A stretch of 51,475 bases of DNA, taken from positions 1-51,475 of the forward strand of contig JAFXTB010000020.1 in assembly GCA_017525225.1 (NCBI GenBank), in the 5' to 3' direction. Origin of the DNA: Kiritimatiellia bacterium. Lineage in GTDB: Bacteria > Verrucomicrobiota > Kiritimatiellia > RFP12 > UBA1067. A program made the position numbers and the translations under genes. The notes under the pieces are model-generated. The model was not told the DNA's origin. It saw only the letters and a list, made by a program, of their open reading frames with translations, and did not search any database. Positions 24,279 through 42,826 of this stretch are shown here, one piece after another; position 1 is the stretch's first letter, and every line of letters starts with the position of its first letter.

Positions 24279-25271
24279 CTAGCTCTTCAAATTGAACTTG
24301 CAGGTCACCGTCGTGCCCTTGCCCATTATGGACTGGATGTCGAAGCGGTCCGAGACGCGCTTGGAGTTTGCAAGCCCCATCCCCGCGCCGAACCCGAGCG
24401 ATCGTATCCAGTCGTTCGCCGTGGAAGTGCCGTCCTGGCAGGCCCATACGACATCAGGGATGCCCGGCCCCGTGTCCTTCGCCACGATGGTAGCCTCGTC
24501 GTCGGCGATCATGAACGTCAGGGCGCCGCCGTGCGAGTGGATGCAGATGTTGATCTCCAGCTCGTACGCCGCCACCGCTATCCGGCGCGTAAGGCGGCGG
24601 TCGATGTTGCGCTCGCGGAGGATGACCTTGATGTCGTTCGCCGCCTTGCCCGCGTTCTCAAGGTCGTTGTGAACCACCGACCACTCGCGCAGCAGGTACG
24701 ACGAACCGTCGCTGTCGGAATCCTCGGCCTTGGCGGTCTTCTTCTCCAGCTTGTTGAGCTCCACCGCCAGCTCGTAGAGCAGCGTGCGCGTGATGTCGCG
24801 CTGGCTTATGAGACCAACCAGCCTATGCTCCTTGTCGAGCACCGGGAAGCGGCCGTAGTTGTAGTTCTCGAAGTACTTGAGCGCGAAGGCGAGCGGCATG
24901 TCCGCCTCGAGCACGATGAGGTGGGTGGACATGTGCTTGACGATTATGTCGTCGATCCACCCGCCCGTGAGGGCGCGTATTATGTCGTCCACCGACACTA
25001 TCCCGTAGAGCCGCCCCCCTTCCGCGATCGGGATCCCGGAGATGTGGTTCTTGCGCATCAGCTCCTGCGCGCGGCGCAGAGTGTCCCGCCGCGACAGCAC
25101 TATAATCCCGGTGCGCATCACCTCGCGCACCTTGATGCGCTGCAGCAGCTCCATTATGACAAGCGGGGAGTCGTCGCCGGTGGCGACGGATGGAATCGGT
25201 GGATGCCGGGCGATGATCTCGTCATCGCTCGCATGCGGGGGCGGCAGTATGACCGGCTTGTGTTCCGCCAC
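24279..25271 (-). CDS. CBS-pair protein fused to an anti-sigma-factor-like HATPase
   Basis: A 330-residue cytosolic protein. Two CBS domains lie at about residues 45-100 (IKVREVMRTGIIVL) and 107-165 (IIVKHMSTHLIVL); they usually bind adenine nucleotides. A GHKL ATPase of the RsbW/RsbT type follows (about 195-330), with N-box YELEINICIH, G1 DTGPGIPDV and G2 GFGAGMGLAN. It is likely a protein kinase or nucleotide switch tuned by ligand binding at the CBS pair. I chose GTG at 25271, 10 nt after the upstream stop and preceded by GAGGGG; a longer frame from 25313 overlaps the DRTGG gene by 32 nt. Its upstream partner is a DRTGG protein. Confidence 0.82.
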   Translation of the reverse strand: MAEHKPVILPPPHASDDEIIARHPPIPSVATGDDSPLVIMELLQRIKVREVMRTGIIVLSRRDTLRRAQELMRKNHISGIPIAEGGRLYGIVSVDDIIRALTGGWIDDIIVKHMSTHLIVLEADMPLAFALKYFENYNYGRFPVLDKEHRLVGLISQRDITRTLLYELAVELNKLEKKTAKAEDSDSDGSSYLLREWSVVHNDLENAGKAANDIKVILRERNIDRRLTRRIAVAAYELEINICIHSHGGALTFMIADDEATIVAKDTGPGIPDVVWACQDGTSTANDWIRSLGFGAGMGLANSKRVSDRFDIQSIMGKGTTVTCKFNLKS

Positions 25272-25281
25272 GGCCGACCCC

Positions 25282-25629
25282 TCAGACGCCGCCTTCCGCC
25301 GCCAGCGCCGCATGCAGCCGCACGCAGCTTTCGTACTTGGACAGCGGCGAGGACACGAGCGGTATCTTCAGCTGGCGCGCCACCTCGCTCATCGTGGACG
25401 GCAGAGGCTTCGAGTCGTGCACAACAACCCCCATCGCACCCACGATGTGGGCAGTGCGGATGGACTGGTCTGAAGCCAGGGAGGTCAGCAGGAGGATGTC
25501 ATCCGCATCCACAAGCAGCACATCGCTCATGAGATCCGAGGCGACAGGCAGGCCCACCGCGCGGTCGGACATGGCGTCGCCTTCCACCAGCGACCCTTCT
25601 AGAATCTTTACAACATCTGAAATCGTCAT
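25282..25629 (-). CDS. DRTGG-domain protein
   Basis: A 115-residue single-domain protein resembling stand-alone DRTGG domains (MTISDVVKILEGSLVEG at the start, a central VLLVDADDILLLTSLASDQSIRTA segment). Such domains occur with CBS pairs and regulatory ATPases, and here it is followed directly by a CBS-HATPase gene. The function is probably regulatory ligand binding. The promoter places the transcription start at or within a base of the ATG, so the mRNA appears leaderless; no Shine-Dalgarno sequence is possible. Confidence 0.7.
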   Translation of the reverse strand: MTISDVVKILEGSLVEGDAMSDRAVGLPVASDLMSDVLLVDADDILLLTSLASDQSIRTAHIVGAMGVVVHDSKPLPSTMSEVARQLKIPLVSSPLSKYESCVRLHAALAAEGGV

Positions 25630-25635
25630 GTCGCT

Positions 25636-25664
25636 ATTCTACCAAAAAACGCGGGGTGGGTCAA
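25636..25664 (-). promoter_or_regulatory. Leaderless promoter of the DRTGG gene
   Basis: -35 TTGACC at 25664-25659, 17-nt spacer, -10 TAGAAT at 25641-25636. Only 6 nt (AGCGAC) separate the -10 from the ATG at 25629, so a start 6-7 nt after the -10 coincides with the initiation codon. Confidence 0.75.
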
Positions 25665-25693
25665 CCTTTCGTACCATCGAAACGGCGGAAATG

Positions 25694-25702
25694 TGGTATA
25701 AT
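25694..25702 (+). promoter_or_regulatory. Leaderless extended -10 promoter of the DUF456 gene
   Basis: TGG-TATAAT at 25694-25702 on the plus strand, followed by 6 nt (GTGCGC) and then ATG at 25709. No strong -35 is visible; the extended -10 TG may compensate. It is divergent from the DRTGG promoter, 30 nt away. Confidence 0.65.
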
Positions 25703-25708
25703 GTGCGC

Positions 25709-26188
25709 ATGGCGGAAACAATCTCGATAGTTGCCGGCAGTCTGCTGCTGCTCATATCGTTCATCGGATGCGTCGTGCCGGTCATTCCAGGTCCGTTGCT
25801 GGCGTTCATCGGTCTTCTATGTGCGCGCGGCATCCCACCGCACGACCAGCCTTCCATCCAGATGCTGGCGATCGCGGGCGGATGCGTTCTGGTGGTGACG
25901 GTTCTCGACTACATCGTGCCGGCACTTGGCGCGAAACGGTTCAACTGCAGCCGTCTCGGCGTGCTGGGCTGCGTGCTGGGAACTGTGATCGGGCTGTTCT
26001 TCATGCCGCTTGGACTGCTGCTTGGCCCCTTCCTCGGCGCGCTCATTGGCGAACTCGTCGCCGGGAAGGCACTGGGGCCGTCCTTCAAGGGCGCGACAGG
26101 CGCCTTCCTCGGCTACGTGGCGGGGATAATGATGAAGCTGCTCTGCTGCGGATTTCTCGCGGCGGCGTTCTTCAGGGCCGTCACTTGA
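25709..26188 (+). CDS. DUF456 family membrane protein
   Basis: A 159-residue integral membrane protein with about four or five hydrophobic segments and the family-typical GCVVPVIPGPLLAFIGLL near residues 20-37 and Gly-rich helices (LGALIGELVAGKALG). The molecular function of DUF456 is unknown. The ATG at 25709 is preferred because the promoter -10 box lies 6 nt upstream; the open frame to 25337 crosses the divergent DRTGG gene. The 3' end overlaps the convergent DUF4861 gene by 8 nt. Confidence 0.82.
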   Translation: MAETISIVAGSLLLLISFIGCVVPVIPGPLLAFIGLLCARGIPPHDQPSIQMLAIAGGCVLVVTVLDYIVPALGAKRFNCSRLGVLGCVLGTVIGLFFMPLGLLLGPFLGALIGELVAGKALGPSFKGATGAFLGYVAGIMMKLLCCGFLAAAFFRAVT

Positions 26189-32592: not shown

Positions 32593-32621
32593 TTGGCAAA
32601 CCGCCCTGCCTTTGGTATACT
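32593..32621 (+). promoter_or_regulatory. Leaderless promoter of apbE
   Basis: -35 TTGGCA at 32593-32598, 17-nt spacer, -10 TATACT at 32616-32621, then 6 nt (GTCGGC) and the ATG at 32628. No ribosome binding site fits between the predicted start site and the ATG. Confidence 0.72.
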
Positions 32622-32627
32622 GTCGGC

Positions 32628-33611
32628 ATGGGAAAAAAGTCCTCTCTCTGCCGTTTCGCCGTCTTCGCCGGCATAATCGCCGTCGGGACGCTGCTATCGC
32701 TCGTTGTCTCCCCGCCTCGCCAGAAAAGACAGGTGCGCTGGACGTCGATGGGTACTGTCGCCGCCATAACGTTCCGTGGCGGTGCGCCGCAGTCCCAGGA
32801 TGCCGTGCGGGAACGCGTACAGGGCGAATGGCTCGCGCTCGAGAAGCGGTTGACTGCATGGGACGCCGATTCCGAGCTGAGCCACCTCGCCCCGCGCCTG
32901 GTCGCCGATGGCGAGAAGGCCCTCGCCGAAGTACCTGCGGACGTGCGTCCCTGCTATTCCTTCGCCTTCGACCTAAGGCGGCAGTCCAGCGGAGCATTCA
33001 ACCCCGTGGTTGGCGAGCAGCTGCGGAAAATCGGCTTCACGCGCCTTTCGCCCGTGGACCTTGGCGCGGTCGCAAAGGGGTTCGCCGTGGATCGCGCCTG
33101 GGAGCTGCTTGAGGAAGGCGACATGCTGCTCGATCTTGGCGGCAACCTGCGTGCGAAAGGCGGCAGCTGGCATACCGGCGTGCGGAACCCCTTCTCGTCC
33201 GGCGCATACGCTGCCACGTTCGACCTGCGCGATGGCGAAGCCGTGGCCACGAGCGGCAGTTACGAGCGTTTCGTGGAACGCGATGGCAAGCGCTTCTCGC
33301 ACATCCTCGACGCCCGCACCGGCCAGCCGGTCGCAGGCATCGCCGGGGTCACCGTGCTGGCGGCATCCGCCATGCTTGCGGACGGGCTTTCGACCACGCT
33401 TTTCGTGCTAGGCCCTGATGCGGGCATCGCCTTTCTGGAAAGCCACTATCCCGGCACGGCGGCGCTCTGGATCCCGGACACGCCAGAGAACCCCGCGATA
33501 CTCGCCACCGTCCCGATGGCGGCCCGCCTGCAGTCGCCTGCGTTCCCGGTCACGGTCCTGCGCAAGGCCGGCGATCGGGGGAAAACGTCCGTACGGCCTT
33601 TTTGCCATTGA
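32628..33611 (+). CDS. apbE: FAD:protein FMN transferase, membrane-anchored
   Basis: Attaches FMN covalently to threonine residues of flavoproteins such as Rnf/Nqr subunits. Motifs: VRWTSMGTVAAIT near the start of the mature part, DLGAVAKGFAVDRAWELL, MLLDLGGNLRAKG, and FSHILDARTGQPV. An N-terminal hydrophobic helix (residues 9-28) anchors it; there is no lipobox cysteine after the helix, so it is probably a signal anchor. At 327 aa it is typical. No Rnf, Nqr or other target gene is in the window. Confidence 0.92.
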   Translation: MGKKSSLCRFAVFAGIIAVGTLLSLVVSPPRQKRQVRWTSMGTVAAITFRGGAPQSQDAVRERVQGEWLALEKRLTAWDADSELSHLAPRLVADGEKALAEVPADVRPCYSFAFDLRRQSSGAFNPVVGEQLRKIGFTRLSPVDLGAVAKGFAVDRAWELLEEGDMLLDLGGNLRAKGGSWHTGVRNPFSSGAYAATFDLRDGEAVATSGSYERFVERDGKRFSHILDARTGQPVAGIAGVTVLAASAMLADGLSTTLFVLGPDAGIAFLESHYPGTAALWIPDTPENPAILATVPMAARLQSPAFPVTVLRKAGDRGKTSVRPFCH

Positions 33612-41764: not shown

Positions 41765-42790
41765 TTAGCGAGATGTCTGGGGTGCTTGGGTAGTTCTCCT
41801 GTAGACGCGAACATAGTCTATCTCGAAATCGCGCGGATATGGCAGGTTGTCCGGCGTGGGCTTAAGCCAGCCGGCAAACTTCGGATGGCCGCCGAGCTGG
41901 TACTGTCCGAGGAGGATCATCATCTCCTTCTGCGGGGTCGGCCCCTCGTACACCCAGAGCCTCTGGCCGTCAAGGTACCACGTGAGTCGGCCTTCCTCCC
42001 ATTCCATCGCATAGACATGGAAGTTCTTCGACCAGTCAAAGGGAAGCGTCGGACAGCAGCCGAACTGGCCGAACTTGCCGTTGCCCAGGTCTTTCGGGAA
42101 GTGGATCGTGAGGGCAAGCTGGTTGTCGTATCGTCCGAGCGCCTCGAAGATGTCGATCTCCACCACGTAGTCGGATACGTTCCTGCTGCGTCCCGCGACA
42201 CTGCCCAGCCGCTCGTTGTTGACCGTGTACTCCTGCCAGAGCGGGTCGGCCTGCACGAGCCAGAACGCGGCGTGGAGCCCATCGCCCTTCGGCATCCGGC
42301 AACGGATTTCCCACCAGCCGTACTTCTGGGCGAACTTGTCGAGGCGCTGGACGTCGTTCGTGGTCGCACCGATGCGGTGGTCGCTCGTCTGGATCGACGA
42401 AACGGCGGGCGCGGAGGGCTTCCTGCGGCGCGGCAGGTCGCGGTCGATGCGCAGTTTCAGGATGCCGTCCTCGATCACGTAGTTCGCATCGGGATCTTCG
42501 AAGCGCGACGGGATGCCCATGCGCGCGAACCAGTCCTTGCGTCCGGCGCGGTAGGATGTGAACCAGTTCCTGTCCTTGACGCGTACACCGTCGAAGTCGT
42601 CCGAAAAGGTCAGTTCCCAGCCAGGCTTCTCGATCGGAGGGCGCGGCGTGTCGCGCTCCGCCCAGCTGCCTCTGCAAGGCATGCCCTTGACCGGAACATC
42701 CGACGCAAACGCGGAAGAAAGCGGTCCTACGGCCTGAATCGCGGCGTACAGGATAATCACACCATGCGTAATATCGTTAATTTTCCCCAT
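41765..42790 (-). CDS. GH16 family secreted beta-glucanase-like hydrolase
   Basis: A 341-residue glycoside hydrolase family 16 enzyme with N-terminal signal sequence (about 1-30). The catalytic motif EIDIFE is at residues 211-216 (Glu211 nucleophile, Glu216 acid/base), flanked by WWEIRCRMPKGDGLHAAFW and ends with the family-typical FEIDYVRVYRR. Substrates of the family include beta-1,3/1,4-glucans, laminarin, agar and carrageenan; which one cannot be told. ATG at 42790 is chosen because a promoter -10 lies 7 nt upstream, making the mRNA leaderless. Confidence 0.88.
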   Translation of the reverse strand: MGKINDITHGVIILYAAIQAVGPLSSAFASDVPVKGMPCRGSWAERDTPRPPIEKPGWELTFSDDFDGVRVKDRNWFTSYRAGRKDWFARMGIPSRFEDPDANYVIEDGILKLRIDRDLPRRRKPSAPAVSSIQTSDHRIGATTNDVQRLDKFAQKYGWWEIRCRMPKGDGLHAAFWLVQADPLWQEYTVNNERLGSVAGRSRNVSDYVVEIDIFEALGRYDNQLALTIHFPKDLGNGKFGQFGCCPTLPFDWSKNFHVYAMEWEEGRLTWYLDGQRLWVYEGPTPQKEMMILLGQYQLGGHPKFAGWLKPTPDNLPYPRDFEIDYVRVYRRTTQAPQTSR

Positions 42791-42797
42791 GGCGAGT

Positions 42798-42826
42798 ATT
42801 CTACCAAAATTCCCACGCCGCCACAA
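42798..42826 (-). promoter_or_regulatory. Leaderless promoter of the GH16 gene
   Basis: -35 TTGTGG at 42826-42821, 17-nt spacer ending in TGG, -10 TAGAAT at 42803-42798, then 7 nt and the ATG at 42790. No room for a ribosome binding site downstream of the predicted start. Confidence 0.7.

Follow-up and report, generated by a model that had tools for sequence, protein, structure and literature searches.

Genes and promoter elements of the divergent gap

The window, i.e., the whole 51,475-nt stretch of a Kiritimatiellia contig analysed here, contains two neighbouring genes that face away from each other, and their divergent ATGs (25629 on the minus strand, 25709 on the plus strand) are separated by 79 nt. 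The elements of this gap, the genes around it and two further candidate sites in the window are as follows:

24279-25313, minus strand: gene for a protein with CBS domain and HATPase; its start may be 25271
25282-25629, minus strand: 115-aa DRTGG-like gene (Pfam match under the cut-off), just upstream of the CBS-HATPase gene
25627-25629, minus strand: ATG start codon of the minus gene, predicted transcription start on the A at 25629 (sigma-70 spacing rule; start kept in orthologues, those led by a Shine-Dalgarno (SD) sequence included)
25636-25641, minus strand: -10 hexamer TAGAAT, extended by a preceding TGG (direct reading, consensus scan, orthologue upstreams)
25659-25664, minus strand: -35 hexamer TTGACC, first base 25664 (direct reading, consensus scan)
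25694-25702, plus strand: extended -10 TGG-TATAAT, with TGG at 25694-25696 and TATAAT at 25697-25702, clear -35 absent (direct reading)
25709-25711, plus strand: ATG start codon of the plus gene, predicted transcription start on the A at 25709 (direct reading; the SD-led orthologue L005 starts at the equivalent position)
25709-26188, plus strand: gene for a DUF456 membrane protein, 159 aa (Pfam PF04306)
32616-32630, plus strand: further leaderless candidate TTTGG-TATACT-6-ATG, ahead of an ApbE-family gene (32628-33611)
42788-42803, minus strand: further leaderless candidate TTTTGG-TAGAAT-7-ATG, ahead of a GH16-family gene (41765-42790)

The initial annotation had labelled the two divergent genes DUF456 and DRTGG. 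The former label is firm, with a match to PF04306 at 5.4e-32 and 111.4 bits (curated cut-off 29.4) that covers residues 22-157, whereas the latter is weak, as PF07085 scores 13.7 bits and thereby stays under its curated cut-off of 25.2. The CBS-HATPase gene is probably the second gene of the transcript of the DRTGG-like gene; the closest relatives of its protein are found at five MAG loci, the best three being 85% identical. At both of the additional candidate sites in the window, TTTGG precedes the -10 box.

On the minus strand the layout reads TTGACC-17-TAGAAT-6-ATG, and on the plus strand TGG-TATAAT-6-ATG. The earlier description of this divergent pair within 79 nt is correct to the base. 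The minus-strand promoter matches the consensus at 10 of 12 positions and carries TG before the -10, while shuffled sequences lead to an expectation of 0.2. The plus-strand promoter was not picked up by the consensus scan; a recognisable -35 is absent, and its assignment rests on the extended -10. In both genes, 6 nt separate the -10 hexamer from the ATG. The last base of the -10 hexamer in E. coli-type promoters is position -7, so that, with a 6-nt gap, either gene would have the A of its ATG as +1. No SD is visible ahead of either ATG (scored as none for the minus gene, judged by eye for the plus gene), and the predicted folding of the two mRNAs, taken over their initial 60 nt, is unremarkable (z of 0.50 and -0.74).

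Start codons and upstream regions of orthologues

The DRTGG-like protein was matched in 93 of the 114 genomes of the family. We read 75 upstream stretches, comprising the five loci of the CBS-HATPase relatives, 30 family loci (the window's own included) and 40 others, of which 66 remained after seven duplicates and two stretches without an ATG had been dropped. A near-consensus -10 box at 4-10 nt from the ATG is present in 22 of these 66, again counting the window's own, and none of the 22 has an SD. The spacing is 6 nt in nine cases, 7 nt in five, 8 nt in two, 9 nt in two and 10 nt in four; with six boxes at 9-10 nt, the mRNAs concerned would have a few leader nucleotides. Among the other 44 upstreams, an SD is found in 40 (25 strong, 15 weak) and is missing in four. 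The orthologues are not independent of one another, and the exclusion of -10 and SD is partly mechanical, because a -10 at this distance leaves little room for an SD. Nonetheless, the adjacent boxes are far above the background (for each position from 11 to 22 nt in this genome, about 0.1% of the candidate ATGs have one), and in related genera they appear to replace the SD. The orthologue in the congener G001 (L186) starts behind an SD instead.

Relatives that use an SD place it before the same codon, as seen in L005 for DUF456 and in most of L141-L163 for the DRTGG-like gene, and the orthologues keep the DRTGG-like N-terminus from the ATG onward. Both ATGs therefore look like conserved, true translation starts. 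A start caller using codon use alone misplaced both of them.

Two observations were made alongside these comparisons. At G376:C26:9018-9325, the DRTGG-like match falls into two separate pieces, one with an internal TGA; the copy may have decayed, or the assembly may be wrong at this point. In G013 (L003, about 1430-1490), the DNA ahead of DUF456 contains a TAACAT-7-ATG, recognised by eye, that opens a frame of 13 codons whose TGA overlaps the DUF456 start; it may possibly represent a leaderless small upstream ORF.

Adjacent -10 boxes across the genome and the order

The genome assembly comprises 4.2 Mb in 180 contigs. Counted over the whole assembly and thus not restricted to gene starts, TATAAT-N6-ATG occurs 44 times and its reversed pattern twice, TAGAAT-N6-ATG 16 times and its reversed pattern twice, and TATAAT-N6/7-ATG 133 times compared to 29 for N16/17. 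In a 795-kb sample of ORFs of at least 60 codons, TAGAAT was found in no case at exactly 6 nt and in three cases at 7 nt, and the TAGAAT form taken alone is for this reason weakly supported.

Positional statistics were drawn from a main sample of 1,423,999 bases, gathered in contig order as up to 20 kb from the beginning of each contig from C1 to C109, with 1007 genes called by codon use and 2293 candidate ATGs, i.e., every in-frame ATG near a called start. The window's contig C25 and the hit-bearing contigs C46, C49, C52, C63, C82, C87, C99 and C102 were excluded, and this slightly lowers the share of such sites in the sample. The stretch C67:1-20000 (L039) was kept in the statistics as it falls under the sampling rule; other stretches chosen for their hits were left out.

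TATAAT was counted 1, 7, 21, 8, 8, 4 and 1 times at successive spacings from 5 to 11 nt, with a mean of 1.5 per position at 11-22 nt. The 28 occurrences at 6-7 nt compare to 3 expected from the other spacings (Poisson p about 4e-18; Poisson and Fisher values here are uncorrected for relatedness). This excess in the spacing between TATAAT and ATG is not due to chance. Allowing TA...T hexamers with up to one mismatch, 16 genes have a box at 6 nt and 33 at 7 nt over a background of 2.8 per position. This corresponds to up to 49 of the 1007 genes (the total if none is counted twice) or about 43 net, 4.3%, and extending the range to 6-10 nt gives about 65 net, 6.4%; these percentages cover near-consensus boxes ahead of ATG codons. 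About 4-6% of genes would accordingly fit the leaderless pattern. Bare TA...T hexamers with two mismatches to TATAAT show no peak, with 9 and 7 at 6 and 7 nt compared to about 6.7 at 11-22 nt, and TANNNT overall rises slightly at 6-7 nt (56 and 57, with 32-50 at other gaps up to 24 nt) in the 795-kb sample of 61% GC.

Sites at 6 and 7 nt were aligned (16 and 32 sequences, respectively). Selection for up to one mismatch to TATAAT makes their hexamer conserved by construction; this does not hold for the TG and the C at -1. Ahead of the -10, the alignments show T-N-T-G-N (T 87%, G 81-84%) and a weak TTG around -36, followed by a GC-rich discriminator and, past the ATG, an A-rich stretch. A C at -1 is found in 93% and 84% of the sites at 6 and 7 nt, and in 42 of 49 sites compared to 66 of 186 at 10-40 nt (p about 2e-10). 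Together with the ATG, this C forms a pyrimidine-purine step at the start codon.

At 6-8 nt, 55 of the 57 sites have no SD-like sequence; at 25-40 nt this is true of 49 of 129 sites, and most -10 matches at that distance (80 of 129) are accompanied by one. SD absence by itself says little, since 298 of the 980 scored called starts in the genome-wide sample lack an SD-like triplet, and it is partly mechanical, as a -10 at 6-10 nt fills most of the SD window. Taken together, the genome appears to use at least two modes: leadered starts, most with an SD, and predicted leaderless starts without one.

For a list of 71 sites at 6-8 nt, GTG starts were admitted, and some entries are likely chance matches inside genes. 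From this list, 20 leaderless ORFs were picked non-randomly, mostly for recognisable-looking proteins. All 20 contain Pfam domains, and in 15 the domain starts within the first 11 residues; these 15 include ribulose-phosphate epimerase (RPE), SecA, QueA, GTP cyclohydrolase I, LptF/LptG, MreB, D-Ala ligase and RpoN. The other five include DnaX and Cys-tRNA ligase.

For secA, 70 upstreams from the order were reduced to 68 after one duplicate and one stretch without a start codon had been dropped. A -10 box lies at 4-10 nt in 24 of the 68, and an SD in none of these. The other 44 split into 26 with and 18 without an SD, and by eye seven of the 18 have TATAAT or TAGAAT 11 nt away. In families f2-f6, secA is either SD-led or has neither signal within 10 nt, except in a single f6 genome, where TAGAAT lies 11 nt away. 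The genome-wide excess is present in f3 and f6 and absent at their secA genes.

We measured the spread of the spacing excess as the number of TATAAT at 6-7 nt versus 16-17 nt before an ATG, totalled for each group among 161 genomes of the order. This count of -10 boxes in relatives had been proposed in the initial annotation as a check, and it returned a clear excess in, e.g., g13 (1498:300, 16 genomes) and g5 (5052:1291, 61 genomes), as well as in g1 (234:49), g14 (486:164), g6 (87:12), f3 (399:107) and f6 (209:54). No excess was seen in g19 (232:218), g18 (45:44), f5 (41:39), f2 (14:19) and f4 without g22 (410:442). At least twofold excess is reached in 120 of the 161 genomes, some on few counts (g2, g4, g22). 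Over 67 genomes of the class beyond the order the ratio is 1566:1776, and two genomes with at least 10 counts lie above twofold. The genus g72, the only one of the phylum outside the order that was summed, gives 618:455 over 22 genomes. The strong spacing signature is thus a property of part of one order of Kiritimatiellae MAGs. Within g13, a single genome (G320) stands at 57:43, while the other 15 reach at least twofold.

Loss of the ribosomal protein bS21 was considered as a cause and rejected: bS21 was matched in 138 of 161 genomes of the order, in 48 of the 48 best assemblies and in this genome. A changed anti-SD was considered as well; no match to 16S rRNA was found in this assembly. An identical stretch, TATAATATTGGAACTTTTTGAAAAGGAGACGTATG, lies near two contig ends (G000:C3:46945-46979 and G000:C6:61686-61720) as a repeated SD-led start and perhaps belongs to a mobile element.

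Interpretation, divergent pairs and known systems

On this reading, the gap would hold two outward-facing promoters for the housekeeping sigma factor, one made up of a -35 and a -10 and the other an extended -10. As each -10 lies one discriminator length (6 nt) from its ATG, transcription would start at the A or within 1-2 bases of it. Both mRNAs would then be leaderless, with no 5' UTR and no SD, and the 5'-terminal AUG would be recognised. The exact transcription start and translation from the 5' end of the mRNA are inferred, and the signature of C at -1 and A at +1 appears to support a start on the A. We consider it very probable that the locus carries back-to-back leaderless promoters that are one instance of a regular minority start mode in this genome and clade. 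The initial annotation had called leaderless initiation a regular mode here; the genome-wide counts and the orthologues argue for this, with the mode being a minority one.

A closely related reading, which overlaps with the main one, places transcription starts a few nucleotides off the A, leaving leaders of 1-5 nt on which an SD would still be unusable. The secA orthologues often have spacings of 8-11 nt, 9-10 nt occur in six of the 22 DRTGG-like upstreams, and TATAAT shows a weak excess at 8-10 nt (8, 8 and 4, against 1.5). The spacing of 6 in both genes of the window and the C at -1 followed by A at +1 favour the A instead, and we regard short leaders at this locus as unlikely, if by no means negligible. 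Far less credible is that the hexamers are chance matches and that transcription comes from further upstream with an SD-less leader. Translation from leaders without SD is known from Bacteroidota, the 298 of 980 called starts lacking an SD-like triplet are compatible with it, and a 79-bp gap could accommodate a leadered promoter. This is countered by the sharp spacing peak with its TG and -1 C signature, by the recurrence of the adjacent -10 in orthologues whose upstream DNA otherwise looks different, and by gaps of 35-39 bp in four relatives, which could not house a leadered promoter without running into the neighbour's coding sequence.

The use of a downstream start with a ribosome binding site, named in the initial annotation as an outcome that would speak against leaderless initiation, was examined as well. 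The gene caller, which works on composition alone, placed the start of the minus gene at GTG 25587, behind AGAAGGG, and that of the plus gene at ATG 25862. True starts at such positions are highly improbable, as orthologues keep the N-terminus from the ATG, the SD-led ones have their SD before that same ATG, and a start at ATG 25862 would remove part of the DUF456 domain.

Returning to the preferred reading of two leaderless promoters, the arrangement of the pair has parallels among the orthologues. Nine of the 75 DRTGG-like upstreams (L178, L180-L185, L205 and L206) face a gene beginning MKFDLHIHSCLSPC or alike, which we take to be PHP-like and have named from its MKFDLHIHS start. This neighbour starts with GTG or ATG, and a near-consensus -10 of its own lies 6-8 nt away. 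The two start codons are 35-75 bp apart, and in four relatives 35-39 bp; in these four tightest pairs, the -10 boxes lie 10-12 bp from each other. With a gap of 35 bp the boxes are 10 bp apart, and in all four pairs each -35 region falls in the coding sequence of the other gene. In the window pair, with DUF456 as partner and a gap of 79 bp, the core promoters do not overlap. A polymerase footprint extends from about -55 to +20, and the footprints of the window pair would overlap by some 30 bp and crowd each other. Tentatively, the 35-39 bp pairs may admit one polymerase at a time and so form a regulator-free, self-contained two-way transcriptional switch, of which the 79-bp pair might be a looser version. 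If this is true, leaderless initiation would allow a gap no longer than a single promoter to serve two genes.

Among the 71 sites at 6-8 nt (20-43 at six other gap sets), one divergent pair within 150 nt was found besides the window's (L123, 61 nt). Two more back-to-back TATAAT-6/7-ATG pairs were noticed, L034 8218-8274 (sites 8220/8272) and G000:C10:28161-28223, in which 51 and 57 nt separate the ATGs. These numbers did not show divergent leaderless pairs to be specially selected in this genome. DUF456 was matched in 12 of 41 genomes, the present one included. The window's own locus is the only one of the 12 DUF456 loci (2.6-3.5 kb each) with a DRTGG-like gene beside it, and likewise the only DRTGG-like upstream (at most 120 nt each) containing DUF456. 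Conservation of this particular pair was hence not found in the loci compared.

The DRTGG-like gene and secA, predicted to be leaderless in some and SD-led in other related genera, offer natural pairs for studying how genes change their translation start. The pair at the locus seems to consist of leaderless promoters of a known kind, in a lineage new for that kind, which would extend leaderless starts, as a regular clade-wide mode, to an uncultured gut lineage. No report of leaderless gene starts in Kiritimatiellae was found in the portions of the literature covered. Kiritimatiellae are listed among the classes with the anti-SD CCUCCUUU in a 2024 survey (PMC10783764), and this listing agrees with the mixed SD and leaderless mode proposed here.

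TA-led leaderless genes, with a -10-like TANNNT about 12 bp before the start codon, have been described as widespread and exceed 20% of genes in Actinobacteria and Deinococcus-Thermus (Zheng 2011, PMC3160421). The main text of that study contains 0 occurrences of Verrucomicrobia and Lentisphaerae. From the features of TA-led genes, the -10 at 6-7 nt, the genome-wide positional peak and the lack of an SD are found here, together with a start codon whose support is comparative. The adjacency of the -10 is the same, whereas the fraction of genes is lower in this genome; TANNNT is reported for high-GC groups, while in our sample of 61% GC the bare two-mismatch TA...T is without a peak.

In Deinococcus-Thermus, -10 motifs adjoin about 30% of ORFs with defined spacing requirements, are strengthened by an added -35 and coexist with RBS-type genes, a system tested experimentally (Zhong 2025, PMC12340547). 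The adjacent -10 and the coexistence with RBS-type genes are shared with the present genome, whereas the phylum differs and our assignment comes from sequence alone; a bare TANNNT that suffices before an ORF was not found here. Akkermansia muciniphila belongs to Verrucomicrobiota in GTDB and hence to the same wider phylum, in a different class. By Cappable-seq, 10% of its mapped transcription starts are located where annotated genes begin, with a -10 and a YR motif (PMC4782308). The -10 and the YR-type start are common to both, the starts being mapped by experiment there and predicted from the DNA here. The spacing excess in the present genome is also stronger than in g72.
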